From assembly GCF_000737575.1 (NCBI RefSeq), contig NZ_CP006270.1:1739163-1803162 (forward strand): a DNA stretch of 64,000 nt. Direction: 5' to 3'. Positions 4,212 through 63,278 of the stretch are shown piece by piece. Position numbers and translations under genes: made by a program. Within the stretch, counting starts at the first letter, position 1; every line of letters begins with the position of its first letter. Origin of the DNA: Synechococcus sp. KORDI-49 (GTDB taxonomy: Bacteria > Cyanobacteriota > Cyanobacteriia > PCC-6307 > Cyanobiaceae). A model generated the notes under the pieces. That model had not been told where the DNA came from and did not search any database. It worked only from the letters and a program-made list of their open reading frames with translations.

Positions 4212-5254
<1,043 letters not shown>

Positions 5255-5258
<4 letters not shown>

Positions 5259-6028
5259 AGGCGGTGCTGACGCTGGCGGTGCTGAGCCTGCTGCTGTTCG
5301 GTGCGTTCCCGGCCGTGGCTCTCGAGGGGGAGCTGCTCTACGGGCAGGCTCTGAGCGCAAGCCGTGAGGGGGATTTCGTGCGGGCGCTGCCGCTTTGGAA
5401 CAGCGTTCTTGAGGTTCTGCCGGAGGATCCCGCCGCCCTCAGCAACCGCGGCAATGTGCGCCTGGCCCTCGGTGATGCCACCGGTGCCATCGACGATCAG
5501 AGTCGTGCCATCGCCCTGGCCCCTGAGGAAGCCGATCCCCATCTGAATCGGGGCACCGCGGAGGAAGCCCTGCAGGACTGGTCTGCGGCGGCGGCGGATT
5601 ACCTCTGGATTCTGGATCGCGATCCCATGGAGGCCTCCGCCCTTTACAACCTGGGCAATGTGCGTGGCTCCGAAGGGGACTGGGCTGAAGCACGTTCGCT
5701 TTACGGGCGTGCGTCAGAGGCCAGACCGGGATTCGCGATGGCCCGTTCCAGTGAGGCACTGGCGGCCTGGCAGGAGGGTGACCAGGTCTGGGCCGAGGCG
5801 GAGCTGCGCAAATTGATCCGGCGCTATCCGCTGTTCGCCGATGCCCGTGCTGCCCTCAGTGCTCTGCTGTGGCAGCGCGGAGCGTCTGGTGAAGCGGAGA
5901 GCCACTGGGCCGCTGCCTCCGGTCTTGACAACCGCTACCGGGATGGCGAATGGCTGCTGCAGATCCGGCGCTGGCCCCCTGTTCCCACAGCGGATCTGAT
6001 GGCTTTCCTGGCGCTTGACAGCCGATGA
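5255..6028 (+). CDS. Exported tetratricopeptide-repeat protein
   Basis: A 257-residue protein with a clear signal peptide (hydrophobic residues 5-19, likely cleavage after Ala-Val-Ala near residue 23) followed by tandem TPR units. Repeat-type motifs such as [15 protein letters not shown] and [15 protein letters not shown] are visible, so it probably acts as a protein-protein scaffold in the periplasm or lumen. It lies between ruvB and an M20 amidohydrolase with four-base overlaps on both sides, which implies cotranscription but not a shared function. The partner is unknown. Confidence 0.8.
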
Positions 6029-44910: not shown

Positions 44911-45894
44911 ATGACTGAGTGTGCAGCCTTACGGTTCAGCCATCACCAGCAGGTTCGGATGGTCCGCGAGCAGCTCTGGGTCGTAGCGGCTTGCTTCAAC
45001 GAGCACAGCATCATCTGTCGGTTCATTGAGGAGGTGCTTCAGCTCCACGTCGTGGATCGACTGGTTCTGATCGATGACGGCTCTGGAGACGCCACGGTGA
45101 CTGTGATCCGCCAGTGGCAGGAGGCCCATCCCAGCGCTCCGCTGGTCTTGCTGGAGCTGACGCGCAACTTCGGCAAGGAAGCGGCGATGCTGGCCGGCCT
45201 CGACCATGCATCTGGACGCTGCGGTGCGGTGGTCTTGATCGATTCCGACCTGCAGCATCCACCGGAGAGGATTCCCGTGATGGTTGAAGCGTGGAGGCAG
45301 GGGGCCGAGGTGGTCACTGCTGTGCGGGATGACCAAGACGCCGAGTCTCTGGTGAAAGTGGCCACAGCCTCCTGGTTCTATCGGGTGTTCAATCGGTTGG
45401 TGGATTCGATTCAGCTGCAGGAGGGGGCCGGTGACTTCCGTTTGCTGAGTGCTCCGGTGGTGGAAGCGGTGACCCAGATGCGTGAAGCCGCGCGTTTCTC
45501 AAAGGGGTTGATGCCCTGGACGGGATACCGCAGCGTGGAGATCCCTTACAGCCGCGTGGCACGTCTGGGGGGGGGCAGTTCCTGGAGCTCCTACAGGCTC
45601 TGGCGTTACGCCCTTGATGGCATCTTTTCCTTCTCGGTGAAGCCCCTCAAGGTGTGGGGGGTGATCGGTGTGCTGATTTCTCTGCTCAGCTTCCTCTACG
45701 CCGCGCTGATCGTTCTGCGCACCGTTGTCTTCGGGGTGGACCTGCCGGGCTATGCCTCACTGATCGTGGCCATTCTGTTTCTCGGTGGAATCCAGCTGAT
45801 CGGCATCGGTGTGCTCGGCGAATACATCGGCCGGATCTACATCGATGTGAAGAAGCGGCCGCACTATTTCATCCGCGCGGTGCACGAGTCCTGA
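44911..45894 (+). CDS. GT2 glycosyltransferase of the GtrB/polyprenyl-phosphate sugar synthase type
   Basis: A 327-residue GT-A enzyme. The N-terminal catalytic domain shows VVAACFNEHSII (about residues 25-36), LVLIDDGSGDAT (about 49-60) with a DD pair, and IDSDLQHPPE (about 107-116), the DxD-type metal site. Two C-terminal membrane helices lie at about 245-268 and 283-303. Such proteins load a sugar onto undecaprenyl or dolichyl phosphate. It is tail-to-tail with a GtrA-containing protein, the usual flippase partner, with a 26-base overlap. An internal ATG at 44959 is an alternative start. Confidence 0.92.
   Translation: MTECAALRFSHHQQVRMVREQLWVVAACFNEHSIICRFIEEVLQLHVVDRLVLIDDGSGDATVTVIRQWQEAHPSAPLVLLELTRNFGKEAAMLAGLDHASGRCGAVVLIDSDLQHPPERIPVMVEAWRQGAEVVTAVRDDQDAESLVKVATASWFYRVFNRLVDSIQLQEGAGDFRLLSAPVVEAVTQMREAARFSKGLMPWTGYRSVEIPYSRVARLGGGSSWSSYRLWRYALDGIFSFSVKPLKVWGVIGVLISLLSFLYAALIVLRTVVFGVDLPGYASLIVAILFLGGIQLIGIGVLGEYIGRIYIDVKKRPHYFIRAVHES
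45567..45575 (+). repeat. Homopolymeric G9 tract inside the GT2 gene
   Basis: Nine consecutive G encode Leu-Gly-Gly-Gly of ARLGGGSSW between the catalytic domain and the membrane helices. It is the longest G run I see in the window; slippage would remove the membrane anchor. Confidence 0.9.
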
Positions 45895-47113
45895 GGGCCT
45901 GCCACTCCCGCTGCCTGTCCGTGCTGCTGAAGAAGCCTGCGGACAGCTGGAATCCGTAGCGCTCCATGGCGGCAGCGTTTCCGGCTACTGCCGGATGGCT
46001 CAGCAGGAGATTGGGTGTGTCTCCTTCGCGCGTTGGACTCCATGCCAGTCCCTGGAGGCATGCCTCGAGAGGGCGTCCCGTCATGCGTCCTGTAAACAGC
46101 ACACCACTGAATGCGCCGTTGGTGCTGATGCCGGCTCGCTTCAGCCGGGGAATGGCCAGGCCGCTGAGCAGTTGCAGCACCAGCCACTTGAGCAGGCCTC
46201 CGCTGCGCAGCGCAGACCACCAGCAGGACAGAGGCAGATCTGTGGGCAGCGGTTCCCGTGTTGTGCGAATCCAGTCGATCTGATGCTGTTTGGACTGTCT
46301 CAGCAGGCAGTCCAGAACGATGGGCGTCAGATGGATGTGCTGATGGCCGTCAAGCGGAATCCGTCGTTGTTCGGTGAGCGTCCGGAAACGGTGGACCTGG
46401 TGTTCGATGGCGCGCTCCAGTTGCGGCAGGAATCGCTGGCGACGCGCGGGCAGCAGTGAGGCCAGCAGCAACGTGCCGAAGCTCGCCGGTAGATCCGGAC
46501 AGCCTTCCACGCCTGGGCCTTCCGTCAGGCAGAGATGCAGGCAGAGTCCCGCGGCGTCGGGCAGCGTCCGCCAGGCGGCGGCGGCCTCCTGTGCCGATGC
46601 CCCGTCCACCAGCAGGCTGGCGCCTTGCAGCTGACCGCTTGTCGCAAGGCTCAGGATGGCTTCATCAACCTCCGGGGCCAGACCGAGGTCGTCTGCATGA
46701 ATCAGGTCAGGCAGGGCTGGGGTGTGACGCTGTCGCTGGCTGAAGCGAGCAGCCCGGCTCCAGATCAGGGCATTCAGCACTGTGGGGGTGAACACCAGCA
46801 GCAGGGTGCGCCATGCCGGATGGGCCCAGTCCGTCAGCAGCAGTGGCAACAGCGCGCAGACGCTCAGATTGATGCCGTATTGGAGGATCAGCCAGCGCCG
46901 GGCAAAGCGACGACCTCCGGTCTCCTCCCGGAAGGTCACCAGAGCATGGCCGAGATAACCCGCCACAGAAGCGGCCAGAAAAGCGAGAGGGTTGGCCAGC
47001 CAGCTGGGAATCACCATCTCAAGGCTGATCAGCACGACGAGATGAACACCTGCCGCCACAGCACCCACTGCTCCGTAGCGCCCCAGGCGCCGGAGCAGCG
47101 CCGCGGATTTCAT
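45869..47113 (-). CDS. GtrA-like flippase domain fused to ChbG/YdjC-family deacetylase
   Basis: A 414-residue two-domain protein. Residues 1-135 form a four-helix GtrA-like membrane domain (helices at about 10-30, 37-58, 72-95 and 100-118, with GYLGHALVTFREE between), the type that flips polyprenyl-phosphate sugars. Residues about 140-414 match the YdjC/ChbG/HpnK deacetylase fold: LIHADDLGLAPEVDEAI with its metal-binding Asp pair, LCLHLCLTEGP with a metal-binding His, and DGHQHIHLTP. The fusion suggests deacetylation of a lipid-linked amino sugar coupled to translocation. It is preceded on the same strand by mtnN with a four-base overlap. Confidence 0.88.
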   Translation of the reverse strand: MKSAALLRRLGRYGAVGAVAAGVHLVVLISLEMVIPSWLANPLAFLAASVAGYLGHALVTFREETGGRRFARRWLILQYGINLSVCALLPLLLTDWAHPAWRTLLLVFTPTVLNALIWSRAARFSQRQRHTPALPDLIHADDLGLAPEVDEAILSLATSGQLQGASLLVDGASAQEAAAAWRTLPDAAGLCLHLCLTEGPGVEGCPDLPASFGTLLLASLLPARRQRFLPQLERAIEHQVHRFRTLTEQRRIPLDGHQHIHLTPIVLDCLLRQSKQHQIDWIRTTREPLPTDLPLSCWWSALRSGGLLKWLVLQLLSGLAIPRLKRAGISTNGAFSGVLFTGRMTGRPLEACLQGLAWSPTREGDTPNLLLSHPAVAGNAAAMERYGFQLSAGFFSSTDRQREWQALRTRAPRG

Positions 47114-47880
47114 CGGCGGGGCGCTGAGGCCTGTCGCCGGAGCAGTGTCTCAATCAACGTCCAGGCCCGTGCGTCGTAGGCCTGAACGAAGTCATTGAAG
47201 CTCTGTGCGGCCTCCGAATCCGCCCCATCCGAGATCACACGCAGAACCAGCCAGGGAACGTTCTCCTGTTCGGCCACCTGCGCCACCGCGGCACCTTCCA
47301 TTTCCACGGCCTGCAGATCGGGCAGGGCGTCGCGCAGGGTTGCGATCACAGCAGCATCCCCGATGAACTGATCACCGGTTCCGATCAGTCCCGGCTTGGG
47401 CCGGCCGAATCCCTGGAGTGCACCGGCGGAGTGGCTCTGCTCAAGCGCGTTGAGGGCCCAGTGAAACCAGGCCTCCTGGGGTGCCAACACGGCCCGGTTC
47501 AGTGGTGGCACTACGAATCTCGGCAGGATCGGTCGCACGTCCAGATCGTGCTGGACAACCGAATCGGCCAGCACCACATCCCATTGCTGCAGGGCTGGGT
47601 CGGCACCACCGGCGACCCCGGTGAACAGAAGCAGATCGATCGGCGCCTCCGGGGAAGCTGAGGCGAGCACACGGGTGGCGGTGCGAGCAGCGCAGACCTT
47701 GCCCCAACCGCTCCAGGCCAGCGTCAAGAGCACCGGCGTGCCGCCATCCCCCTGCCATTCGCCGCGATGAATCACCAGATCGCCGAAGGTTTCGCGACTC
47801 AGGTTGTTCAGATGAGCCAGATCAGAACCGATTTCCTCCGGCATGGCCCCAAGCAGACCGAGATGGAGAGGGCGTTCCAT
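47110..47880 (-). CDS. mtnN: 5'-methylthioadenosine/S-adenosylhomocysteine nucleosidase-like protein
   Basis: A 256-residue PNP/UDP-phosphorylase-fold protein. It starts LGLLGAMPEEI (about residues 7-17), has LLFTGVAGGADP (about 84-95), and carries the ligand motif LQAVEMEGAAVAQVA (about 190-204) plus ISDGADSEAAQSF with the catalytic Asp. It should cleave MTA or SAH to adenine plus methylthioribose or ribosylhomocysteine, recycling products of SAM chemistry. Futalosine hydrolase is a relative, but the MEGAA and SDGAD motifs favour MTA/SAH nucleosidase. It overlaps the GtrA fusion by four bases. Confidence 0.85.
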   Translation of the reverse strand: MERPLHLGLLGAMPEEIGSDLAHLNNLSRETFGDLVIHRGEWQGDGGTPVLLTLAWSGWGKVCAARTATRVLASASPEAPIDLLLFTGVAGGADPALQQWDVVLADSVVQHDLDVRPILPRFVVPPLNRAVLAPQEAWFHWALNALEQSHSAGALQGFGRPKPGLIGTGDQFIGDAAVIATLRDALPDLQAVEMEGAAVAQVAEQENVPWLVLRVISDGADSEAAQSFNDFVQAYDARAWTLIETLLRRQASAPRR

Positions 47881-49198: not shown

Positions 49199-50251
49199 GT
49201 GGCCACCAGGCTTGTTCGCTTTCTGGTTCCCGGCACCAGCGGTCGTTTCCGCTGTGGTGGACTGAGCGTTGAGCTGCAGACGGCACGTCTGGTGGCCTCA
49301 CTGTGTGAGACGGAGATCGTCACGTACCGCGAGCGTCGGGAGGACGTCCCCTTCCTGCACGACCTTCTCCGCGATGAATCCGCCTCAGACCATGTGCTCT
49401 GGATCGTCAGTTGGGGTTTCGATGTTCCAGGGTTGATCCGTTGCCTGAGAGGTCACCGGGTGGCCTACCACGCCCACAGCAGTGGGTACGGCTTTGATCT
49501 GCCTCCTGGGATTGCCGTTCTGGCCGTGAGCCGGAACACCCTCGGGTACTGGGGTGACCGAGCGCCTCGGAACCCACTGTTCCTGGTTCCGAATGCCCTG
49601 GAGCAGGCCTGGCTCGACCGTGGTGATCGTGCCGACGCCAGTGGCCGGGAGCGTCCCATCGATGTGCTGGTGCAGGCCCGAAAAAGCAGCGATTACGTTC
49701 TTCAGAGGCTGGTGCCGGCTCTTCGTCAACGGGGGCTCTCGGTGGAGGTGCAGAGCGGCTGGGTGGATGATCTGGTGGGCTTGTTCAACAACGCCAAGGT
49801 GTACCTCTACGACTCCGCCGAGTACTGGCGGGGACGGGGCGTCACGGAAGGCTTCGGCCTGCCGCCGTTGGAGGCGATGGCCTGCGGCTGTGTCGTGTTC
49901 ACCAGCCTGAATCACGCTCTTGCAGACCACTGTGATCCGGGCCGATCAGCTCATCAGATCGGCTGCGGCAGCCTGGCCCATGATCTGCAACGCATTCAGG
50001 CCGCCGTCGCCGAACCGCTGCGATGGCGCCCACCGATGGCGGAGCTGGGGGTTCTGCTTCAGAACAGTGGTGAACAGCGATTGTTGGAGCGCTGGCGACA
50101 GGTGATGACAGATCTCGATCAGCTCCAGGGCCAATGGCAGCTGGATGCACCCCTCAGCAGCCCATCCACGTTGAGGTTGCGTTTGGCTCAGATGCTCCAT
50201 CGCGCAAGGCGAGTGGTCGATCGGTTACCCGGCTGGCCGAAACGGTCCTGA
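49199..50251 (+). CDS. GT4-like glycosyltransferase
   Basis: A 350-residue GT-B protein starting with GTG. The C-terminal donor domain has DVLVQARKSSDYVLQRLVP (about residues 156-174) and the GT4 E-x7-E motif in VTEGFGLPPLEAMACGCVVF (about 219-238). The N-terminal acceptor domain is unusual in opening with VPGTSGRFRCGG. It heads the run of sugar-transfer genes leading into an ABC exporter. Sugar donor and acceptor are unknown. Confidence 0.8.
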   Translation: MATRLVRFLVPGTSGRFRCGGLSVELQTARLVASLCETEIVTYRERREDVPFLHDLLRDESASDHVLWIVSWGFDVPGLIRCLRGHRVAYHAHSSGYGFDLPPGIAVLAVSRNTLGYWGDRAPRNPLFLVPNALEQAWLDRGDRADASGRERPIDVLVQARKSSDYVLQRLVPALRQRGLSVEVQSGWVDDLVGLFNNAKVYLYDSAEYWRGRGVTEGFGLPPLEAMACGCVVFTSLNHALADHCDPGRSAHQIGCGSLAHDLQRIQAAVAEPLRWRPPMAELGVLLQNSGEQRLLERWRQVMTDLDQLQGQWQLDAPLSSPSTLRLRLAQMLHRARRVVDRLPGWPKRS

Positions 50252-50333
50252 AACGTCAGAGCTGACGGCTTAACTCATCAAGTTGTCAGAGATTTCCTGC
50301 AGATTCGTTTCGGCGAAGAGATCAGTTCGTTCT

Positions 50334-52154
50334 ATGCCCGTTTTGCAGAGCCAGACCTGGAAAGAACTGAGCACTCTTTTTCGTGAGTTGTCACCGGAAC
50401 GGCGGAAGTCTCTTCTTATTGTTCTCGCTGCATCGTTATTCCAGGGTGTTATTGACATCCTGTTGGTGGGTCTGCTCGCCAGGCTGGTCGGGCTCCTGGC
50501 TGGAGCGAAATTGGAGGATCAGATTCCTGGGATCCGTTTCTTTGGAGGTGGGTTTCTGGATCAGGCGGGTTGGATCGTTCTGCTGCTGATTGCGTCGTTC
50601 TGGTTCGCTTCTGCCGTGCGCTTCGGGGTGGCGTTACTGGAGGCGCTTCTTGCTGCAGATATCTGGTCAGATCTGGTCAATAAGGTGTACGGCAATCTGT
50701 TGATGCAGAACTACGAGTTCTTCACGCAGAAACGCTCCGCTGTTCTCTCGGAGCGATTCAATCGCATCCTCACCAGAGTCACGTCAACGGTGATTTCCCC
50801 GATGATCGCCATCTCCGGGAATGTGTTGAGTGTTTCGGCTTTGTTGATTGGTGTTGCCATCGCCCTGGGTGGCAAGGCACTCACAATCTTCGTGTTTCTG
50901 TTGATTGCCTATCTGATTGCTTCCCTGATCATCACGCCTTATCTGCGCCTGTTCCTGCGCCAGAAAATGCGTTATACGCGTCGGATTCGGCTCACTTTCT
51001 CTGAGTCGCTGCGATCGATGCGTGACATTCAGTTGTATTCCTCGCATCAGTTTTTTGTCGACCGTTTCATGCGCGACGGAACGATCGCCAAGCGCAATGA
51101 CCGGCTTGCCAATCTTCTGCCGAATGTCCCCAAATTTCTGATCGAGCCAGCCGGCATCACCATCCTGTTCCTGGTCGGTCTTGCACCGGCCCTGGTGAGT
51201 GGGGACAGCGATCAGTTGCGTGCGGCCATGCCGGAACTGGCAACGGTGCTGGTTGTGCTTCTCCGGATTTCAGGTCCCCTGCAATCGATGTTCCGCAGCC
51301 TCAACAAACTGCGTGGTGGTCTGCCGGAAGTGAAGGATGCCCTTGATCTGCTGTGCATGCGTCCAACCCGCCTTTCGCTCGCTGATCCGTCCGTGCCATC
51401 TCCGGAGGGGGTCATGCCTCGCCGTCTGATCGAGCTGCGCGACGTCACCTTTTCCTATGGGCTCTCGGGTGAACCGGTGCTGCGCAATGTGGATCTGTCC
51501 ATTCCTGTGGGTTCGCGCATTGCGCTGGTCGGCAAGACCGGAAGCGGCAAGACAACACTGGCTCATCTGCTGCTGGGTTTGTACAAACCGGAGTCGGGCG
51601 AACTGTTGCTCGATGGTCTGCCGGTGTCAGATGAGGAAATGCCTGCCTGGCAGTCCAATTGTGCTTTTGTGCCGCAGCAGATTCGTCTGCTGGATGCCAG
51701 CGTGCGTGAAAATGTGGCGTTCTGTGAAAGTCCCGACGAAATCGATGATGACGAGGTGTGGGCCGCCTTGAAAGCTGCTCAGTTTGCTGATTTTGTTGCC
51801 GACATGCCCTATGGGCTGTTCACCATGTGTGGGGAGAACGGCATGAAGCTCTCCGGTGGACAGCGTCAGCGGTTGTCTCTGGCCCGAGCGTTTTACCGCA
51901 ATGCCAAGTTGCTGGTGCTCGATGAAGCCACCAGCGCTCTGGACAACAAGACCGAGTACGACGTGATGCAGGCGCTTGAGCTGGTGGGTCGGCGCTGCAC
52001 GATGGTGGTCATCGCCCATCGCCTGTCCACAGTGAAGAAATGCGATCGGATCTACGAAATCGCAGACGGAGGTATTCGGGCTTACGGCGATTTCGAAACG
52101 TTGAAAGCGACGTCCACCAGCTTCCGTGAGATGGCGATGCTCGATGACGCCTGA
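50334..52154 (+). CDS. ABC exporter (fused permease-ATPase), probable glycan or lipid-linked glycan flippase
   Basis: A 606-residue half-transporter. The N-terminal membrane domain has about six helices (about residues 27-50, 75-95, 145-170, 175-200, 265-290 and beyond), and the C-terminal ATPase shows Walker A GKTGSGKTT (about 395-403), the LSGGQRQRLSLARAF signature, Walker B LLVLDEATSAL, and the AHRLS H-loop. PglK/Wzk- and MsbA-type exporters share this layout. Flanking glycosyltransferases make an oligosaccharide-lipid substrate likely. The ATG at 50334 is chosen over a TTG 51 bases upstream. Confidence 0.9.
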   Translation: MPVLQSQTWKELSTLFRELSPERRKSLLIVLAASLFQGVIDILLVGLLARLVGLLAGAKLEDQIPGIRFFGGGFLDQAGWIVLLLIASFWFASAVRFGVALLEALLAADIWSDLVNKVYGNLLMQNYEFFTQKRSAVLSERFNRILTRVTSTVISPMIAISGNVLSVSALLIGVAIALGGKALTIFVFLLIAYLIASLIITPYLRLFLRQKMRYTRRIRLTFSESLRSMRDIQLYSSHQFFVDRFMRDGTIAKRNDRLANLLPNVPKFLIEPAGITILFLVGLAPALVSGDSDQLRAAMPELATVLVVLLRISGPLQSMFRSLNKLRGGLPEVKDALDLLCMRPTRLSLADPSVPSPEGVMPRRLIELRDVTFSYGLSGEPVLRNVDLSIPVGSRIALVGKTGSGKTTLAHLLLGLYKPESGELLLDGLPVSDEEMPAWQSNCAFVPQQIRLLDASVRENVAFCESPDEIDDDEVWAALKAAQFADFVADMPYGLFTMCGENGMKLSGGQRQRLSLARAFYRNAKLLVLDEATSALDNKTEYDVMQALELVGRRCTMVVIAHRLSTVKKCDRIYEIADGGIRAYGDFETLKATSTSFREMAMLDDA

Positions 52155-52159
52155 AGGCC

Positions 52160-54379
52160 ATGGCTGATGTCATCCTCCTGTCCACAGCGGACTGGGATCA
52201 TCCGCTCTGGACGAACAAACAGCACCTGGCCGTTTCGCTGGCGGATGCCGGTCATCGAGTGCTCTACATCGACTCCCTTGGAGTTCGCGGTGCCCGTGCT
52301 GGTCGGGCTGATGCCAGGCGAATCCTGCGCCGACTGCTGAGAAGCTTGAATCCTCTCCGGCAGGTGCGTCAGCGCATCTGGGTGGTGTCGCCACTGGTGC
52401 TTCCAGGGCGGACCACTGGAATGGCGGGGCGACTCAACCGCTGGAGCTTCGGTCTTGCGCTGTTCTGGGCCGATTGGCGTCTGGATCTGCGCACTCCTCT
52501 GTTGTGGACCTTCAACCCGAACACGCGCTCTTATCTGAAGCTCGGGCGTTTCCAGGCCACGATCTATCACTGCGTCGATCGCATCCAGGCGCAGCCCGGC
52601 ATGCCTTCTGAATCGCTTGAACGCGCAGAACAGGATCTGTGCGGTGCCGTCAATGCTGTGTTCACGACAGCTCCTGAGTTGCAGAAGGAGCTGGCACCGC
52701 TCAATGCCGGGACGCATCTGTTCGGCAATGTTGCCGATGCTCAGCATTTCGGACGGGCCCGTTCGCAAGAGCTGCTGCGTCCCCCTGATCTCCCCGCGAT
52801 CCAAGGGCCCTGCCTGATCTTCATCGGCGCCATCGATGCCTACAAGCTCGATCTGGCGATGCTGGAGGCCCTGATCGCCTCGACTCCGCAATGGACCTAT
52901 GTGCTGATTGGTCCAGTCGGTGAAACGGATCCGTCGACCGACGTGGAGCCCCTGGCTTCCCATTCCCATGTGCATCTGCTCGGCCCCAGGCCCTATTCCG
53001 AGCTGCCGGGGTATCTGGCATTGGCCGATGTCGCCCTGCTGCCGCTGCAGCTCAACGACTACACCCGCCACATGTATCCGATGAAATTCTTCGAATACCT
53101 GGCCGCTGGTTGTCCTGTGGTGGCCACGGCCATTCCGTCGCTCTTGGACCAGGGGGATGTGGCCACGCTCTGTCCACCAGATGCCACGGCGTTTCAACAG
53201 TCGATCGCCGCAGTGCTGAAAGGTGATGTTCCGGCTTTGGAGCAACGCTTGGCTCGTGCGGAACAGTTCACCTATGAGCGGCGCACGGCCTCGATGCTGC
53301 ACTGTCTCGGCCGACACGGCCTCTTGCCTCAGGAGCCGGCTCCGCCGCAGGCGATGCCGTATCACCGCGTGCGGCGACAGCTGCGGGTTGATTGGGTCGC
53401 TGCCCAGGTGGGTCTGCTGCCGGTTCAGGCCATGGATCGATTGGGATGGCAACGGCTCAGCAGCCCCCTGCTGGATGCTTTTCTCCGCAGGTGGCCGTTC
53501 AGCATTCCCTTGCTCAGCGTTCGGGCCAGCCAAGCCTTGGCTCAAGGCGATCACGACAGGGGCCGCCACCTGATTGAACAGATCTGGCAGCTGGACGGTG
53601 AAGCTGAGCTGCTGCATCAACTGCTGTTCCGCCGCGGTTCCCGTCCTGGTGATCGCGGGGATCAGCTGGCGATGTTCGATGCTCTGGCTTCGAGCACGGT
53701 GCTGCCGCTCCACTTTTCCGGTTACTGCCGGGTGGTGCGCACCTACAGGGCGATTGATCAGAAAGATCAAGCCCATCTGCGGCGTTGCTGCAACGCCCTG
53801 GATGACATCATCGCTGCGTTGGACGATGACTCCGACACTTATCAGTGCCTGAGGCCGAATCGGGTGAACCGGGCCAAGCTGCTGATCTCGGCTCATCTCA
53901 CCAGGCTGCGCGGATTGATGGCGTTGCACGATCATCCCGCCCTCAACCAAGCCGCCTTGCAGCTTGAGCAGTGCGCCCGGCGCTACGACCCATTTGCAAT
54001 TGATCGGACCACCGCGATTCGGATGACCCGCAACATCATGCGTTGTCTGGCGATTGCGGCGGTGATGGCCTGGCATGCAGGAGACAGCTGCCGTCTGGAT
54101 GCTGTGGTCGCGCAGGTGGAGCGCTTGCGATCGGCGAGTTATGCCGATCGCTTTGACCCCATTGCGGAACGAACCCAGGAGGACCATCGCTCTTTTGCCG
54201 ACTGGATGCTGGAGCGTCTGCGAGGTTGCCGCTGGCCCGGAGGCCAAGCGACGCTGAAACCACCCGCCTCGTTGTTCGTCGAGCCCGTGTTGCTGGTGTA
54301 TTTCCCGGTGCTGCGGCTGGATCGGGCTGAAAAGGCCTGGCGCTTTCTCACTCCCCTCAGCGGACAGGCCGCGGCGTGA
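52160..54379 (+). CDS. Glycosyltransferase with large helical C-terminal extension
   Basis: A 739-residue protein. Residues about 1-390 are a GT-B glycosyltransferase similar to the TuaH/GT4 type: WTNKQHLAVSLADAGHRVLYID (in parts, about residues 14-35), CLIFIGAIDAYKLDL (about 213-227), and the donor loop YPMKFFEYLAAGCPVVAT (about 309-326). Residues about 395-739 form a mostly helical region of unknown fold with repeats such as QGDHDRGRHLIEQIW that look TPR-like. It begins five bases after the ABC gene and overlaps the next gene by four. The extension may bind a partner or acceptor. Confidence 0.82.
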   Translation: MADVILLSTADWDHPLWTNKQHLAVSLADAGHRVLYIDSLGVRGARAGRADARRILRRLLRSLNPLRQVRQRIWVVSPLVLPGRTTGMAGRLNRWSFGLALFWADWRLDLRTPLLWTFNPNTRSYLKLGRFQATIYHCVDRIQAQPGMPSESLERAEQDLCGAVNAVFTTAPELQKELAPLNAGTHLFGNVADAQHFGRARSQELLRPPDLPAIQGPCLIFIGAIDAYKLDLAMLEALIASTPQWTYVLIGPVGETDPSTDVEPLASHSHVHLLGPRPYSELPGYLALADVALLPLQLNDYTRHMYPMKFFEYLAAGCPVVATAIPSLLDQGDVATLCPPDATAFQQSIAAVLKGDVPALEQRLARAEQFTYERRTASMLHCLGRHGLLPQEPAPPQAMPYHRVRRQLRVDWVAAQVGLLPVQAMDRLGWQRLSSPLLDAFLRRWPFSIPLLSVRASQALAQGDHDRGRHLIEQIWQLDGEAELLHQLLFRRGSRPGDRGDQLAMFDALASSTVLPLHFSGYCRVVRTYRAIDQKDQAHLRRCCNALDDIIAALDDDSDTYQCLRPNRVNRAKLLISAHLTRLRGLMALHDHPALNQAALQLEQCARRYDPFAIDRTTAIRMTRNIMRCLAIAAVMAWHAGDSCRLDAVVAQVERLRSASYADRFDPIAERTQEDHRSFADWMLERLRGCRWPGGQATLKPPASLFVEPVLLVYFPVLRLDRAEKAWRFLTPLSGQAAA

Positions 54380-55533
54380 ACCAGCAGGTGGCCGGAACGA
54401 TCGCCTTCAGCATCGACTCCCTGAAGCTCGGTGGAGCCGAGAGGACCTTGCTGCGCTGGGCAGTCTGGTGCCGGGATGCCGGTTGGCGGGTGGTGGTGAT
54501 CACGCGCCATGGACCGGAGCGGGATGCCTATCCGGTGCCGGAGGGTGTGGTCCGCCGTCAGGAGCCTCGTCTCTCGCCTGCTCTGGAACGGCTTGGCTGG
54601 TGGGCCTTTCCCGCAAGGTTGCTGGCGTTGCGCTCGCTGCTGCGCCAGGAGTCGATTGATGTGGCGGTGGGGGTGACGGTGCTGCCTGCTGTGAAGCTGC
54701 TGTTGGCCTGTCGTGGACTGGGACTTCGTTGTGTGGTGTCAGAGCGCAACTACCCCCCGGCGCGCCCGCCGGCGTTGCCCTGGCGATGGTTGCGGCGCTT
54801 GGCCTATCCCTGGGCTGATCTGCATCTGGTGCAAACCCGCACAACCGGCTGTTGGTTGCGGCGCCATTGCGGTGCTGAGCATCAGCAGTTGATGCCCAAT
54901 CCTGTGGTCTGGCCGCTTCCGAACCATGAGCCGGCTCTGTCCCCAGATGCCCTGTTGCCGCCTGAGGTCCCTGTGCTGTTGGCGGCGGGAACCAAGGCTC
55001 ATCAGAAGGGTTTTGATCGGTTGATGCCCGTCTTCAGGGGGTTGGCCGATCGCATCCCGGAGCTCCATCTGGTGGTGCTGGGGTTGGGGGATACCCCGTA
55101 TCAGGGCGTTGATCAGCAGGCCTGGCTGCGGCAATTGCTTGGGGATGGCTCGGATCGGCAGAGCAGACTGCTGCTGCCGGGCCCGGTGGGCAACATGTCC
55201 GATTGGTACGCGAGAGCCAGCTTGTTCCTCCTGCCATCGCGATTCGAGGGGTTCCCCAATGTGCTGCTGGAGGCCATGGCTGCAGGCTGCGCCTGCGTTG
55301 CCAGTGATTGCCCCACCGGTCCGGCCGATCTGATCGAGGATCACAAGAACGGGCGGTTGTTGCCGGTTGATGCGTCGTCAGACGTCTGGATTGAGGTGTT
55401 GGAGAGCCTGTTGCGGGGTGAGGAGCAGCGCGCCCGGTTTGCTGAGCAGGCGATGTGCGTTCGTGACCGCTTCAGCGAGCGACACCTTCGGGCTGTGTTT
55501 CTCGATGCCGTTCAGGGACTGAGCCATGGATGA
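54376..55533 (+). CDS. GT4 glycosyltransferase
   Basis: A 385-residue GT-B enzyme beginning with GTG in the stop of the preceding gene. It has the N-terminal SIDSLKLGGAERTLLRWA acceptor-side motif (about residues 13-30) and the donor site SRFEGFPNVLLEAMAAGCACVASD (about 288-311 in parts), with the E-x7-E pair intact. This combination is typical of transferases that add hexoses or HexNAc to polyprenyl-linked glycans. It overlaps the next glycosyltransferase by eight bases, so the cluster is translationally coupled. Specificity unknown. Confidence 0.9.
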   Translation: MNQQVAGTIAFSIDSLKLGGAERTLLRWAVWCRDAGWRVVVITRHGPERDAYPVPEGVVRRQEPRLSPALERLGWWAFPARLLALRSLLRQESIDVAVGVTVLPAVKLLLACRGLGLRCVVSERNYPPARPPALPWRWLRRLAYPWADLHLVQTRTTGCWLRRHCGAEHQQLMPNPVVWPLPNHEPALSPDALLPPEVPVLLAAGTKAHQKGFDRLMPVFRGLADRIPELHLVVLGLGDTPYQGVDQQAWLRQLLGDGSDRQSRLLLPGPVGNMSDWYARASLFLLPSRFEGFPNVLLEAMAAGCACVASDCPTGPADLIEDHKNGRLLPVDASSDVWIEVLESLLRGEEQRARFAEQAMCVRDRFSERHLRAVFLDAVQGLSHG

Positions 55534-56824
55534 TCTCTGGGTGGTGCTGCCTCATCTCGGAGCAGGGGGCGCTCAGAAAGTCGGCCTGCTCGCAGCAGAA
55601 CATTTCGCCGCACAGGGGTTCCAGGTTCGGGTGCTGTCGCTGCGACCGGAGCATCCGGTCAAGCACCGGCTGCCCGACAACGTGTCCATGCTGGACATGG
55701 ATCCAGATCCGAAATCCCTCCATCCCTGGCTGCGGGATGTGGAGAACCGTTCCTGGCAGGCACGCGGGCGGCGCTTCACCGTTGCCCAGCTGATCAAGGT
55801 GCGGCGATTCATCGTTCGGCTCGTCACTGTCGTTTTGCTGCGCGGCATCCAGCTCGCCTTGCCCTGGGTTGATGATCGATTGCAACCGGGCCGGGGTGGA
55901 CTGGCCAACGCGCTGTTGTCCTGCTGCATGGAAAGCGTTGGCGGCCTTCGTTACGCACGCCTGCGCGACTTGCTGGTTGAGCAGCAACCGGGGCGGGTGT
56001 TGGCACTGCTCAGCAAAACCAACATTCTTTGCTGTGCCGCGGCTTGGGATCTGCCGATTCATCTGGTGGTGTCGGAACGCAATGATCCCCGACGGCAATC
56101 GATGGATCGTTTCTGGCGCTGGCTGCGTTGTGTGTACTACCGCCGAGCCGATGTGGTGACGGCCAACACCGAGGGCGTGCTGGAGGCTCTGCAGGAGATG
56201 GGGGATTGGCAGCGGCTGGAATTGCTGCCCAATCCCCTGCCCGCCGGTGTGCTTCACGAGGATGCGGAGCCTGCCCATGGCGCTGAGCAGGAGATTCTTG
56301 CGGTGGCCAGGTTGGTGCCGCAGAAAGGCCTGGATCTTCTGCTCAGAGCCTTTGCCGAGCTGGACCCGTCCCTCCGAGAGGGTTGGCGCGTGACCCTTGT
56401 GGGCGATGGTCCGGAGCGTGAACGGTTGCACCGGCTGGCCGCGGATCTGGCGATCGGTGATTCCGTTGTGTTCGAAGGTTTCCGCTCGGATCCTTTCCGC
56501 TTCATGCAGCGGGCCTCGATCTTTGCTTTGCCCTCCCGTTTCGAGGGGATGCCGAATGCGCTGCTGGAAGCCATGGCGGCCGGACTCCCCGCGGTGGTGA
56601 GTGATGCATCGCCAGGGCCGTTGGAGATGGTGCGAGATGGCGTGAACGGCTTGGTGGTGCCCACCGAAAACCACCTCGCGTTCGCGAGGGCGTTACAGCA
56701 GTTGATCGACGATGGCGGGATGCGGGATCGGCTCGGTGATGCCGCCCGTGAGAAGCTCCGGTCACTGGACTGGAGCGTGGTGGAGCCCCACTGGCGTTCC
56801 GTGCTCGCCCTCCCAGCTCTGTGA
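55526..56824 (+). CDS. GT4 glycosyltransferase
   Basis: A 432-residue GT-B enzyme similar in type to its upstream neighbour: VVLPHLGAGGAQKVGLLAA opens the acceptor domain (about residues 6-24), and LPSRFEGMPNALLEAMAAGL (about 332-351) is the donor-site E-x7-E motif. An internal stretch of about residues 70-125 is rich in Arg and hydrophobic residues and may touch the membrane. It overlaps the genes on both sides. It probably acts consecutively with the neighbouring transferases on one glycan. Confidence 0.9.
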   Translation: MDDLWVVLPHLGAGGAQKVGLLAAEHFAAQGFQVRVLSLRPEHPVKHRLPDNVSMLDMDPDPKSLHPWLRDVENRSWQARGRRFTVAQLIKVRRFIVRLVTVVLLRGIQLALPWVDDRLQPGRGGLANALLSCCMESVGGLRYARLRDLLVEQQPGRVLALLSKTNILCCAAAWDLPIHLVVSERNDPRRQSMDRFWRWLRCVYYRRADVVTANTEGVLEALQEMGDWQRLELLPNPLPAGVLHEDAEPAHGAEQEILAVARLVPQKGLDLLLRAFAELDPSLREGWRVTLVGDGPERERLHRLAADLAIGDSVVFEGFRSDPFRFMQRASIFALPSRFEGMPNALLEAMAAGLPAVVSDASPGPLEMVRDGVNGLVVPTENHLAFARALQQLIDDGGMRDRLGDAAREKLRSLDWSVVEPHWRSVLALPAL

Positions 56825-57972
56825 TGCCGGCGGCTCTTCAGGGTGCACTGATGGTGTTCGCTCCAACGCGCCAGGCGGCGAGTGAAACCTTCATCCGCGC
56901 CAACCTGGCGGGACTTCCGTTTCGGATCCAGGCCTGGTTCGGGGACGAGCGCCCCCTCGTTCAACCCCTTCGGTGTCTGTACGGCAGCGCGATCCTGCTG
57001 AGCAAGCTGCTGACGCGGCTACGTTTGCTGCGACTCGCCGGATTGCCGGCTGCATGGGTGGCCTGGCTGTTGATTCGCCTTGATCCCCCGGATGTGGTGC
57101 TGGCGGAATTCGGCTTCGAAGCGGTGCGCGTGATGGAAGCCTGCCGCTGGAGTGGTGTGCCGCTGGTGGTGCATTTCCGTGGATCCGATGCGTCGGCCCG
57201 GAACCGCATCGGGCTGTTGGAGGAGCGCTACCGCCGGCTGCTGCGTCTGGCCGGTGGCGTGATCGTGAAATCGGAACGGATGGCCCTTCGCCTGGAGGAG
57301 CTCGGTGCTGAACGGCAGCGGATTCAGATCAGCCCATCCGGTGCCAATCCGGCGCTGTTTCATGGCAGTCAGCCTTGTCAATCGCCTCCGCTGCTTCTGG
57401 CGGTCGGTCGCTTCGTGGCCAAGAAGGGTCCGCTGCTCACCTTGCGGGCTTTTCAGCTCTGTCTGCAGCGAACCGATGTCTCACCGCTTCCGCAGTTATG
57501 GATGGTGGGAGAGGGCCCGCTGCTTGCAGAAGCGAGGCGGTTTGTTGTTCAGCATCAGCTGCAGAACAATGTGGTGTTTGCCGGGGTCTGTTCTCAGGAG
57601 CAGGTGGCGGAACGGATGCGTCAGGTGCGTGCCTTCGTGCAGCACTCGATCGTGGCCCCGGATGGAGACAGTGAGGGAAGCCCCGTGGCTGTGATGGAAG
57701 CGCAGCTCAGCGGCCTGCCAGTGATCGCCACCCGTCATGCCGGGATTCCTGATGTGGTTCTCGATGGGGGAACGGGCCTGCTGGTGGAGGAGGGAGACGT
57801 GGACGCGATGGCCCAGGCGATGCTGACCCTGCTCGCAGAACCGATGCTGGCTCAAAAGCTTGGAGAGGCCGGCCAGAGGCGCGCCCTCCAGCACTTCACG
57901 GTGGAGCATCATTTGCGGGACGTCACCGAACTGCTGTTGCGGGTGAGTTCCGCGGCCCGGGCATTGTCATGA
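56824..57972 (+). CDS. GT4 glycosyltransferase (WcaL/colanic-acid-like)
   Basis: A 382-residue GT-B enzyme. Near the N-terminus, TRQAASETFIRANLAGLP (about residues 14-31) is the pattern of WcaL/AmsK-type galactosyltransferases. The donor region reads GDSEGSPVAVMEAQLSGLPVIAT (about 280-302 in parts), followed by HAGIPDVV. The ATG at 56824 is chosen; a GTG three bases earlier is possible. It overlaps the preceding stop by one base and the following sulfotransferase by four, so glycosyl transfer and sulfation may be coupled. Confidence 0.88.
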   Translation: MPAALQGALMVFAPTRQAASETFIRANLAGLPFRIQAWFGDERPLVQPLRCLYGSAILLSKLLTRLRLLRLAGLPAAWVAWLLIRLDPPDVVLAEFGFEAVRVMEACRWSGVPLVVHFRGSDASARNRIGLLEERYRRLLRLAGGVIVKSERMALRLEELGAERQRIQISPSGANPALFHGSQPCQSPPLLLAVGRFVAKKGPLLTLRAFQLCLQRTDVSPLPQLWMVGEGPLLAEARRFVVQHQLQNNVVFAGVCSQEQVAERMRQVRAFVQHSIVAPDGDSEGSPVAVMEAQLSGLPVIATRHAGIPDVVLDGGTGLLVEEGDVDAMAQAMLTLLAEPMLAQKLGEAGQRRALQHFTVEHHLRDVTELLLRVSSAARALS

Positions 57973-58844
57973 GTCGTCCCCCAACCCTGCTGCTGATCCG
58001 CGGCCTGGGCCACAGCGGTACCACGATCCTTGATCTTGCTCTTGGTGCTCACCCTCTGGTGATGGGTCTTGGGGAAGCTGCCCGGATTCTGAAGACTCCG
58101 GAACCTGGTGAAGAACAACGTGGTCCCGCCATGCTGCGTGGTTCACAACGACAGGACCGACTCTGCACCTGTGGGGCCACTGCCAAGGACTGCCCGATCT
58201 GGGGACCGGCCTTGGAGTGGCTGGTGGCGCATGACCACCTGTCACTTCCGGACAAGATGCAGCGGCTGATGCAGTTCTCCAGCGCGATGCCGTCCGCCAC
58301 TGGGGAGCCCCACCGGGTGATCGTCGATTCCTTTCAGGATGAACTGGTGCTGCCCCAGGCGATGCCTGATCAACTGGATGTGCGGGTGATTCACCTGGTG
58401 CGTGACGTCCGCTCCTGGCTGCACTCCCGGTTGAAGCCAGCCCGCGCATCAGCGCAGCCGTTCTCCGAGCTGCGCACCTTGTTGCGTTGGTGGTACGTGA
58501 ATCGCAAATTCGATCGGGCTCTGCAGCGCTGCGGCCGGCCTGTGTTTCGTCTGGGCTATGAGGAACTGGCGCTCCAACCCGAGCGTTCGCTGCAGCTGTT
58601 GTGCGACTGGTTGGCTCTGCCCTATTCCGATCAGATGCTGTCGCCCGGAGCTAACAGCACAAGCCATATCCTTTCGGGCAATCGGATGCGGTTTGATCCG
58701 GCTCGCTCGCGGGCGATCCGTTACGACGCCGCCTGGATGGCCTCCAACGACTGGCTGCTTCGCACGGCTCTGCTGATTCCGGCTGTGGCTGGGCTGAACC
58801 GGAAACTGGTGTATTCCAACGACGTTCTCCAGTCCTGTGTGTAG
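57969..58844 (+). CDS. Sulfotransferase
   Basis: A 291-residue protein with a PAPS-binding start IRGLGHSGTTILDLALG (about residues 9-25) and a 3'-phosphate motif VIHLVRDVRSWLHSRL (about 139-154). A CTCGATAKDCPIW segment (about 59-71), with three cysteines, is seen in many cyanobacterial and actinobacterial sulfotransferases of this type. It ends the plus-strand glycan operon with a four-base overlap to the upstream GT4 gene. It probably sulfates the sugar made by that operon. Convergent with a second sulfotransferase, seven bases away. Confidence 0.85.
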   Translation: MSRPPTLLLIRGLGHSGTTILDLALGAHPLVMGLGEAARILKTPEPGEEQRGPAMLRGSQRQDRLCTCGATAKDCPIWGPALEWLVAHDHLSLPDKMQRLMQFSSAMPSATGEPHRVIVDSFQDELVLPQAMPDQLDVRVIHLVRDVRSWLHSRLKPARASAQPFSELRTLLRWWYVNRKFDRALQRCGRPVFRLGYEELALQPERSLQLLCDWLALPYSDQMLSPGANSTSHILSGNRMRFDPARSRAIRYDAAWMASNDWLLRTALLIPAVAGLNRKLVYSNDVLQSCV

Positions 58845-58851
58845 TTGGCAC

Positions 58852-59691
58852 CTAGCGGCACCAGCGGCTAGCCGTTGGCCAGTGCCGGCACAGATCAAGC
58901 TCCGGCAGTTGATCGGCAACGCCGCGGTACACCGCAGCCTGGCTTTCACCGATGCTGGCAAGAACGTCGTCCGGCAGATCAGTGGTGGAGCGACTTTCGT
59001 TCACCCGATGGCTCCAGTTCGGTTGCTGGTATGGAACCATCAGATGACGGCAGAGCTGCTCATAAACGGGTTCGGTGAACAGACGTTCGTAGAGCTCAAT
59101 GAATAGATCCTTGGGGGCAAATGCCTGGCTTAATGCCTTGAGTGTGTGCAGATAATCGCTGCGCTGACTGGACTGCTGCCTGAGTTTATGGGCGGTGCGC
59201 AGCAAATGATTCCGTTCGATGTCCGGCTGAAGTTCCCCGCGTTTGCGTAATTTCATCCGTTGTTGCGACAGAATTCGCTCCACTGGATCCCGCATCAGGA
59301 AGACCACCCGGGTGGCGATGTTTCTTTGGTCAAATTCCTGACGCACCCAAGCCATCGTTTCGGGCGAAAGGCAGCTGTACGACGGGGTGATGTCACCGGT
59401 GAGTTGAATGGACGACTTTTTCAGTAAGCGGCTGAAGTAGTCGAAATAGCGAGAGCTGTCCGTCAGGAAACGTTGCCGGCGCCAGGTTCTCCATTTCCAG
59501 GGAGCTGCATGTCTGGGTCTGAAATGTTCAAATTGCGGCAATGTTATTGCGTCAAGAATGTGATACTCCTTGCAGAAGCCGAAATCTGCGTCCTGACGGC
59601 AATGTAATTGCTCATGCAGCCAGGAGGTGCCTGCCTTTTGTGCGCCAACGCCAAACAGGAAGACTTTTCGCGTTTGGTTTGACTTTCTCAT
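58852..59691 (-). CDS. Sulfotransferase (Sulfotransfer_1/3 type)
   Basis: A 279-residue sulfotransferase. The phosphosulfate loop FGVGAQKAGTSWLHEQL (about residues 13-29) and the 3'-phosphate motif RVVFLMRDPVERILSQQRM (about 128-146) are clear and close to the heparan/glycan sulfotransferase pattern. GDITPSYSCLSP (about 99-110) resembles the substrate-cleft region. It overlaps the upstream membrane-protein gene by four bases and is the last gene of a minus-strand series including kdsA. Confidence 0.88.
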   Translation of the reverse strand: MRKSNQTRKVFLFGVGAQKAGTSWLHEQLHCRQDADFGFCKEYHILDAITLPQFEHFRPRHAAPWKWRTWRRQRFLTDSSRYFDYFSRLLKKSSIQLTGDITPSYSCLSPETMAWVRQEFDQRNIATRVVFLMRDPVERILSQQRMKLRKRGELQPDIERNHLLRTAHKLRQQSSQRSDYLHTLKALSQAFAPKDLFIELYERLFTEPVYEQLCRHLMVPYQQPNWSHRVNESRSTTDLPDDVLASIGESQAAVYRGVADQLPELDLCRHWPTASRWCR

Positions 59692-61481
59692 TGAATTCTC
59701 CTGAAGATTTTGCCATTGTTCTCATTTGGATTGTAATTATAAATTTCCCTGTAGGCGGTCATGTCAATATGATGTGTTGCCAGGCGTTTGCCAGTGTCAA
59801 TATTCACAAGTAAGTCCCCTTTGACAGGGGAGTAGAAAGACCCTTTTCCGACTCCTTCCATGACAGTGTATACATCATCCTCTAGGTCAAAATAAATCAG
59901 ACGGTCGAAATTCAAACGCTCCAGAGGCCCGCGATTTCTGAACCATGATTTGGAGTAGATGATGTTGATCTCTTCTCCATTCTGGCGAGCATTTGTTGTG
60001 ATTGTGCGCAACCGATCATAGGTTTGTACCCAGCTTTCCTGGTCGACTTTCATCTTGCTGATTCTGTGATTAAAGCCTTTTCCTTCAAGATGCTCGATAC
60101 CAATCAGACAACTGCTTGCTACGACTCCTGCAATGCCAATCAGCTTTGTATTGTCGCCTTTGTGAATCAGTGGTGTTGTTGCCCAGATCCATAGCATGGT
60201 CAAGTTCAGTGTCGCGATGAGTTGAACAGGCAGTGCCATGTAATTGCTGGAGCGAAACCCCACAAGGGCGAACAATCCAAGGGCGTAAGCTAAGGCGCCG
60301 ATATTGAAAGCATCCAGCAGAGAAAATCGTACTTTTCGAAGATGGATCAAGATGCTTCGTGTCGCCATGGTCAGCATCAGGATTCCAAATCTGTAATCGG
60401 ATTCGAAGCGAGAAAATCGAAGAGCGGAGTCGTAGGCATTATTGCCATGGTAGAAGCTTGGTATGTAACTTAGAAACAGGAACGAAATTGCCAGAACAAA
60501 GATTAAACTGATGAGACATATCTCCAGCCTGTATGCATTGATCCAGGCTTCCAGTGTTTTTCTAGACAGCTTTGGCCTGCCCGCGAGAGCCCCGCTGCAC
60601 CCAGCAAGCAACACAAACATTGGTGGCACGGTGAAGAGAATGAAGCCTGTATCTTTGAAAAAGATGCCGACCAGTGCCGGAAGTATTGTTAGATATTGAT
60701 CTCGGGACCGCTTGGATTTCCAGTAGTGACTATAGAAGTAGATGTAGATTGCAAACAGAAGAGTAACGATTCTTTCGCTATAAATAAACTGGAAAAATGT
60801 AAACCCTGTAGCGGTGTCAAACAAAAATAGAATACTGAAAACCAGGAGAATCTCTTTCCTGTTGGATCTGTTGCTTAATTCACCAGCTGTTTTAGCGCTG
60901 AGAATGCAGATTGTGACAAGCTCGGCTGCGTTCACCAGCATCCAAATGCTTACATAGGGTGTCAGCCAGCTCAGAATGTGTAGATCCTGGTGCGATAGAG
61001 GAAAGAAGCGAAAATCATTGCGGAACATTGTTTCTTTGACGAGTTCCCAGCGCAATGCGAAGTTGTTCAGCAAGTGATCAGTGTGAATATCTTTGTACCA
61101 GCTGATGATTTCCTTGTAAAACCAGCTTGCTTGCTGAAGCATCAGAGATGCATAGAAGGCAAACAAACCCGATGCGAGAGGGTGTCTTCTAACCCATTGC
61201 AATATCCTTTTAATGCTTCCTGCATTCTTCTCTGTTTGGTATTGTGTGGCGGTTTCAGACTGTGCCTTGTGAAGCAGAAATAAGCAGGTTGCAGTGAGAA
61301 GCAGGAGGAAAAAAAGATGTGAAATCGCGTTGTAGCGCTTCAGCAAGAGTTTGCCGCTTTCACTGGCCACCTCAGGCAGCCATGTGCCCGAAGGGATCAG
61401 GATGAGGATTGCAAACAGTCCAATGCCGATCAACACCAGCCACAGAACTCCAAGCCAGCGAACGGTCGTTGACCCAAACAT
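59688..61481 (-). CDS. Polytopic membrane protein, possible glycan polymerase or GT-C transferase
   Basis: A 597-residue protein of AT-rich composition with about ten or eleven hydrophobic helices spread over residues 10-470 and a soluble C-terminal region of about 110 residues. A loop after the third helix (about residues 128-165) holds several acidic residues and histidines, which resembles GT-C or O-antigen-polymerase-like proteins, but no diagnostic motif is visible. It lies between kdsA and a sulfotransferase on the same strand, so a role in the surface glycan is likely. Confidence 0.6.
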   Translation of the reverse strand: MFGSTTVRWLGVLWLVLIGIGLFAILILIPSGTWLPEVASESGKLLLKRYNAISHLFFLLLLTATCLFLLHKAQSETATQYQTEKNAGSIKRILQWVRRHPLASGLFAFYASLMLQQASWFYKEIISWYKDIHTDHLLNNFALRWELVKETMFRNDFRFFPLSHQDLHILSWLTPYVSIWMLVNAAELVTICILSAKTAGELSNRSNRKEILLVFSILFLFDTATGFTFFQFIYSERIVTLLFAIYIYFYSHYWKSKRSRDQYLTILPALVGIFFKDTGFILFTVPPMFVLLAGCSGALAGRPKLSRKTLEAWINAYRLEICLISLIFVLAISFLFLSYIPSFYHGNNAYDSALRFSRFESDYRFGILMLTMATRSILIHLRKVRFSLLDAFNIGALAYALGLFALVGFRSSNYMALPVQLIATLNLTMLWIWATTPLIHKGDNTKLIGIAGVVASSCLIGIEHLEGKGFNHRISKMKVDQESWVQTYDRLRTITTNARQNGEEINIIYSKSWFRNRGPLERLNFDRLIYFDLEDDVYTVMEGVGKGSFYSPVKGDLLVNIDTGKRLATHHIDMTAYREIYNYNPNENNGKIFRRIQ

Positions 61482-61491
61482 TGTGCTCAGA

Positions 61492-63278
<1,787 letters not shown>

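Follow-up and report, generated by a model that had tools for sequence, protein, structure and literature searches.

A GtrA–YdjC fusion and its GtrB-type partner as a probable sugar-decoration module of the picocyanobacterial cell envelope

Introduction

FlmK transfers galactosamine to lipid A, and two solved members of the YdjC family, ChbG and CmCBDA, are soluble enzymes with free oligosaccharides as substrates. In the known pathways, the loading of a sugar onto a lipid, its deacetylation and its flipping are carried out by separate proteins, and the side of the membrane and the timing are hard to show. Systems composed of a GtrB loader, a GtrA flippase and a GT-C transferase are described in passages of two papers (PMC8035078, PMC7389260), and passages of a third (PMC11279074) describe NaxD, a YdjC superfamily member of Francisella and also Acinetobacter, which turns undecaprenyl-phosphate-linked N-acetylgalactosamine (GalNAc) to galactosamine before lipid A modification. 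Here, we analysed a stretch of 64,000 nucleotides of Synechococcus sp. KORDI-49 (contig NZ_CP006270.1, positions 1,739,163 to 1,803,162; hereafter the window), in which one gene joins a GtrA-like membrane domain to a YdjC deacetylase domain and stands beside a gene for a GtrB-type glycosyltransferase of family 2 (GT2).

A protein in which four helices are naturally joined to a cytoplasmic enzyme would settle the side of deacetylation, suggest the order of the steps and offer a single target for tests. Synechococcus and Prochlorococcus are abundant marine phototrophs, and the fusion would predict a free-amine sugar on their surface.

Results

The fusion gene

The fusion gene (45869-47113, minus strand) starts with ATG and encodes 414 amino acids (aa); its domains were assigned by Pfam and an AlphaFold2 model. 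A GtrA-like domain of four helices (46724-47113 (-), residues 1-130) is followed by the YdjC deacetylase domain (45887-46702 (-), residues 138-409), and both Pfam domains exceed their cutoffs: GtrA_DPMS_TM (PF04138) matches residues 12-105 with 39.5 bits against 26.1 (E 7e-10), and YdjC (PF04794) matches residues 138-409 with 118.9 bits against 29.7 (E 5e-34). The AlphaFold2 model, with a predicted local distance difference test (pLDDT) score of 92.9 and a predicted template modelling score of 0.85, shows long helices at residues 2-32, 37-64, 72-92 and 99-130 and, after them, the deacetylase barrel. The joined architecture proposed in the original prediction, which was made from the letters of the window, is thus borne out.

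The fusion gene is real. The same architecture occurs in 48 loci of other genomes, which rules out an assembly error as its origin; the original prediction had raised this possibility together with that of split genes in close relatives, which does not apply either. We counted as a fusion locus any open reading frame (ORF) with a two-domain phmmer match, and the 48 were found among 60 stretches taken from genomes of the family and from outside it, the remaining 12 being stand-alone YdjC genes, outside loci, the genome G033 discussed below and one stretch of 10 bases. Our alignment holds 46 fusions, i.e. the window member and 45 of the 48 other loci (L074, L079 and L110 were left out), and both Pfam domains were recovered in every one of them, the window member included, with E-values for GtrA no higher than 0.001. 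The genome that holds the window (2,585,813 bases on one contig, 99.98% complete) carries a single YdjC copy, the fusion, and its second GtrA domain sits in a GT2-GtrA protein.

How widespread is this architecture? A search of 34 genomes of the own genus, its own included, returned 23 near full-length matches (the other 22 at 57-68% identity) and partial matches in G013, in two pieces, and G033, at residues 5-150 only; 9/34 had no match. A scan of GTDB contigs, with the best 80 of 156 relatives representing 78 distinct loci, many of which overlap the fetched genomes, found one ORF with both domains in 48 of 51 cyanobacterial loci; in the other three, the gene is cut by a contig end (L168, L172) or the frame is interrupted (L163). 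Carriers include Synechococcus WH7803 and RCC307, Prochlorococcus MIT 0701 and Vulcanococcus. None of the 27 non-cyanobacterial loci had the GtrA and YdjC profiles in one ORF, and YdjC frames outside the family, among the matches listed for 386 genomes of the phylum, measure at most 365 aa, except for one of 403 aa in G649. No fusion turned up outside this family among the listed loci and frames. Two matches on viral contigs were confined to the YdjC part. Within 400 genomes of the family, YdjC was found in 94: 85 have a frame that reaches 340 aa or more, the measure by which fusions outside the fetched loci were counted, 9 have a stand-alone or shorter copy (one genome has both) and G172 has a broken one.

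In a midpoint-rooted tree that sampled 21 of the 46 fusions and has long branches that meet, 21/21 sampled fusion rows fell on one side of a branch with support 100/100. Outside the cyanobacteria, a GtrB-like GT2 gene stands next to YdjC in 15/27 loci, a figure that includes near-copies and is not an unbiased rate, and in 6 of these a separate GtrA gene is also present. The same families thus adjoin as separate genes elsewhere, and the picocyanobacterial gene is a fusion of two of them. A different join, a GT2-YdjC fusion of 598 aa, was seen in a deltaproteobacterial metagenome-assembled genome (L186 1649-3445).

The deacetylase site

The ADDLG and HQHIH motifs named in the original prediction are present as HADDLG (46682-46699 (-), residues 139-144) and DGHQHIH (46331-46351 (-), residues 255-261). 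D141, D142, H193, E198, H257, H261, R283, H373 and P374 are invariant in 46/46 fusions, among them D141, D142, H193, H257 and H261, the predicted deacetylase ligands whose absence would have refuted the original prediction, and this invariance persists across fusions with identity as low as 36%, so that a dead enzyme is unlikely. We take the Asp and His residues of the motifs to be the metal ligands. The site motifs line up with the corresponding ChbG motifs in a profile alignment, and structural alignments of the AlphaFold2 model, spanning residues 133-414 only and thus not the GtrA half, matched ChbG (7vi8) with Z 22.7 over 231 residues at 2.8 Å and 2i5i with Z 22.6.

Could the domain have another function? 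One alternative would be a module that does not serve N-acetylhexosamine (HexNAc), its YdjC domain removing a different acyl group or acting as a non-catalytic sugar sensor; the site residues that stay invariant down to 36% identity argue against it, and we consider it improbable. The top NCBIfam model for the fusion protein is HpnK (TIGR03473), which would point to a hopanoid-linked sugar as the substrate. However, its 83.7 bits lie far below the cutoff of 232.6, and no hopene cyclase match was found in the own genome at its 99.98% completeness, in a search whose sensitivity is partly shown, since 2/14 control genomes matched and 0 exceeded the cutoff. On the sub-cutoff score and the lack of a cyclase match, we rejected a hopanoid role as the principal explanation and regard it as extremely improbable. 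We favour instead a deacetylase that would act on a lipid-linked HexNAc.

The GtrB-type partner

The adjacent gene (44911-45894 (+), with a true start that may be internal) encodes a GtrB-type GT2, a predicted polyprenyl-phosphate sugar synthase. The tail-to-tail overlap of the two genes by 26 bases (45869-45894) and the GtrB-type of the neighbour were already claimed in the original prediction and were both found: among solved proteins, the GT2 profile matches GtrB of Synechocystis (sll0501) best, at E 5e-106, with ArnC next, and profile positions 10-316 of 325 align to sll0501, the C-terminal membrane part included. The best NCBIfam model was PgfS, at 251.7 bits below its cutoff of 500.

The original prediction had suggested a check of synteny across cyanobacteria, and a convergent GT2 gene accompanies the fusion in 48/48 other loci of the family. 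The 3' ends of the two genes range from a 132-base overlap to a 22-base gap in 47/48; in the exception, L067, 1.9 kb and two other ORFs lie between them (4516-6158, methyltransferase-like by eye). Across the 400 family genomes, GT2 orthologs (threshold 370 bits) occur in 84 and a weaker match in 27 more, and 82 genomes hold fusion and GT2, 3 the fusion only, 2 the GT2 only and 313 neither. Among the fusion-only genomes, a non-orthologous GT2 of the same kind occupies that place in G107, G322 ends at a contig edge and G363 retains a GT2 remnant, judged by eye; the GT2-only genomes are G172, with a broken YdjC copy, and G033. The pair lies near icd in 37/48 loci and away from it in 11/48, with heme oxygenase nearby in 36/48. 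Because the 11 loci without icd still hold both genes, the pair stays together in different surroundings, and the link to icd and heme oxygenase was treated as context.

Topology and the order of steps

The GtrA half shows four hydropathy peaks (residues 26, 52, 84 and 113), in agreement with the four long helices of the model and with the three to four transmembrane helices of GtrA proteins. Lysines and arginines average 2.7 at the N-terminus, 4.2 in loop 2 and 4.5 after helix 4, against 0.4 each in loops 1 and 3, and the former regions exceed the latter in 46/46 fusions, which fits an N-in/C-in topology. This charge pattern therefore places both ends and the YdjC domain in the cytoplasm, and deacetylation would then most likely come before flipping. 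The original prediction had proposed a three-step unit in which the sugar is loaded, flipped and only then deacetylated. Its components hold, i.e. the fusion and a constant GtrB partner, but the proposed order does not agree with a cytoplasmic YdjC domain. Some other envelope deacetylases do act outside, so an outer-face reaction would have precedent; it is nevertheless decidedly improbable given the charge pattern and the model, in which no further helix stands between helix 4 and the barrel. Judged from sequence, the most likely order would be load, deacetylate, flip.

Does the membrane domain itself flip the sugar? Y13, N41, W74, Q78, N82 and N114 are invariant in 46/46 fusions. Residue 56 is His in 45/46, whereas six stand-alone GtrA genes from outside loci encode Asn at this position, as does the gene for the GT2-GtrA protein of the own genome. 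Judged from its distance to a conserved Phe, H56 corresponds to N69 of GtcA, so that the GtcA-type Asn is not found here. According to passages of PMC7389260, N69 is >99% conserved among 1000 GtcA homologs, and an N69A variant kept its function. This weakens the idea that H56 is an essential change, and the His is thus not disqualifying for membership among GtrA proteins. N114 in helix 4 is of uncertain register to other GtrA proteins and hence to the function-critical N132 of GtcA.

The weak GtrA match and the non-canonical His at residue 56 would suit an alternative in which the domain does no more than anchor the protein in the membrane, or offer GtrB a docking site, so as to keep the deacetylase close to the lipid-linked sugar, and flipping is left to another protein. 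The GT2-GtrA protein of the own genome could flip, and passages of PMC7389260 note that findings on what the GtrA protein Rv3789 does are in conflict. The invariance of the six residues speaks against it, as does one genome, G033 (L112 7772-8170), which keeps GtrA beside GT2 with nothing left to anchor. There, an in-frame loss has removed the YdjC domain: the GtrA part extends through helix 4, is directly followed by residues like the near-terminal KEWTSAQQL of the L067 fusion, then stops, and the remnant overlaps GT2 by 18 bases. This looks like a natural domain deletion in which GtrA and GtrB were kept, and since both persist after the loss of YdjC, GtrA seems to be of use without the deacetylase. 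We consider the anchor or dock rather unlikely and prefer a GtrA domain that would move the sugar.

A candidate transferase

Three home-made profiles detected a GT-C-type gene close to the pair in 10 of the 11 loci away from icd: a DUF2079 gene in 8 and a PMT/ArnT-like gene in 2 (L098, L099). The remaining one, L084, has a DUF6311 protein only. In RCC307 (L082, L164) and its kin, the DUF2079 gene is upstream of GT2 and overlaps it by 4 bases. In genus g68, a PMT/ArnT-like gene immediately precedes the fusion in the 3/4 genomes that can be viewed, the contig of the fourth (G288) ending too soon; the PMT-family protein of L098 reaches 122.6 bits with the ArnT model (cutoff 567). DUF2079 is present in 78/85 genomes with the fusion vs 92/315 others. 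Seven fusion genomes lack it. Four of these are the g68 ones, which suggests that an ArnT-like enzyme replaced DUF2079 in this genus; the remaining three have a completeness of 87%, 65% and 85%.

The AlphaFold2 model of DUF2079 is of low confidence (pLDDT 65.0), and Foldseek found no match for it reaching E 0.001. Rows 1-16 were lipid-sugar-dependent glycosyltransferases (ALG12, DPY19, ArnT, PglB, glycosylphosphatidylinositol (GPI) mannosyltransferase I) or oligosaccharyltransferase/translocon complexes, and rows 17-19 were GPI transamidase. The matched glycosyltransferases presumably hold GT-C folds. Searched by sequence against the PDB, DUF2079 had no match. Taken together, these data suggest DUF2079 as a candidate GT-C transferase for the pair. 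The own genome encodes a protein 60% identical to the DUF2079 of L078, more than 0.4 Mb from the window. Its gene stands in a run (L215, 1293000-1299000) with PMT-like (by eye), GT2-GtrA and PMT_2 genes, and this run would form a second polyprenyl-phosphate-sugar system.

Other features of the window

An MtnN-like nucleosidase gene (47110-47880 (-)), not named in the original prediction, is co-directional with the fusion, its stop overlapping the fusion start by 4 bases. It is a neighbour in just 6/48 other loci, in 3 of which the two genes again overlap by 4 bases if the first start is used, and we took it as local gene order and probably not as part of the pathway. After the heme oxygenase, 49199-59691 holds GT1-like glycosyltransferases, an ATP-binding cassette (ABC) exporter and two sulfotransferase-like ORFs, the labels past the GT1 at 49199 being by reading only. 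A 597-aa membrane protein follows (59688-61481 (-)); a 644-aa look-alike, judged by eye, is located at the broken GT2 of G363 (L214 5071-7005). Further on lie a 3-deoxy-D-manno-octulosonate (Kdo)-8-phosphate synthase (61492-62343 (-); NF009109, 508.9 bits, over cutoff) and a second GT2 (62397-63278 (-); nearest model AglJ, 91.3 bits, under cutoff), which adjoins a PMT_2-type GT-C gene that runs from 63359 off the window end. The Kdo-8-phosphate synthase contrasts with the reviewed marine Synechococcus lipopolysaccharide (LPS), said to be without Kdo in passages of PMC4515613.

Discussion

Based on these results, we propose that the pair probably works as a module for decorating the cell envelope with a sugar, by loading, deacetylating and flipping. 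As its family suggests, the GtrB-type GT2 would load an N-acetylhexosamine, N-acetylglucosamine (GlcNAc) being the simplest guess, onto polyprenyl phosphate at the cytoplasmic face. On the same face, the YdjC domain would strip the acetyl group and leave a lipid-linked free-amine hexosamine, as its fold, its invariant site residues and the precedent of NaxD suggest. The GtrA domain, which shares its polypeptide with YdjC, may then carry this amino sugar on its lipid to the other side of the membrane. A GT-C enzyme encoded elsewhere, probably DUF2079 (ArnT-like in one genus), would transfer it to an envelope acceptor such as LPS. Passages of PMC4515613 describe the LPS of WH8102 and CC9311 as glucose-rich, with less glucosamine and galacturonic acid, and their lipid A as being without phosphate.

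We speculate further on a coupled gate, deacetylation and then flipping, in which a GtrA domain retuned by the family-specific His takes the sugar from the deacetylase to which it is fused. Only free-amine sugar would then arrive at the surface of marine picocyanobacteria, DUF2079 would be a new GT-C family that transfers it, and G033 would have switched its surface charge by deleting just the deacetylase domain. This version is possible, though we hold it to be doubtful.

Several observations weigh against the proposed module. Convergent genes do not make one transcript, and YdjC enzymes act on free chito-oligosaccharides too. The GtrA match is weak and stops at residue 105, the register of helix 4 with other GtrA proteins is unsure, and the family carries a His where the compared GtrA proteins carry Asn. 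In the 37 loci linked to icd, to which type the window belongs, the three profiles detected no GT-C gene near the pair. The co-occurrence with DUF2079 is not specific, as 92/315 fusion-free genomes carry it, and the members of the family are related, so the Fisher values for co-occurrence overstate independence. Even if the sugar is wrong, a stable two-gene envelope unit is kept by 82/400 family genomes.

How does the pair compare with described systems? Among open-licence full texts, no paper brings GtrA together with YdjC and none treats DUF2079; YdjC with undecaprenyl phosphate appears in two reviews, and the papers listed for YdjC together with Synechococcus or Prochlorococcus include none that mentions YdjC. 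The novelty lies in the fused form, the GtrB, YdjC and GtrA components being already known elsewhere as separate genes. The neighbouring GtrB and YdjC genes (with GtrA in some), mostly of Alphaproteobacteria, place identical families side by side, but as separate genes and with YdjC on other branches. ChbG and CmCBDA share the barrel fold and the site motifs and differ by an identity to the fusion of only 18-20% in structural alignments. HpnK is likewise of the YdjC family and the best sub-threshold NCBIfam model, but the fusion scores below its cutoff and hopene cyclase was not found in the own genome. The CsbB/GtcA/YfhO system and the Shigella GtrA/GtrB/GtrX system, as far as the passages available describe them, have the same GtrB-type loader, GtrA flippase and GT-C transferase, whereas the fusion adds a deacetylase to the flippase protein and has a helix 2 His in place of the conserved Asn. 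The FlmF2/NaxD/FlmK system of Francisella, as described, combines, like our pair, a GT2 polyprenyl-phosphate-sugar synthase with a YdjC-family deacetylase, and genus g68 has an ArnT-like GT-C gene beside the pair, of which none was found at the window. It differs in that the deacetylase of the fusion is joined to GtrA, and in that the reviewed marine Synechococcus lipid A is, in the passages of PMC4515613, without phosphate.

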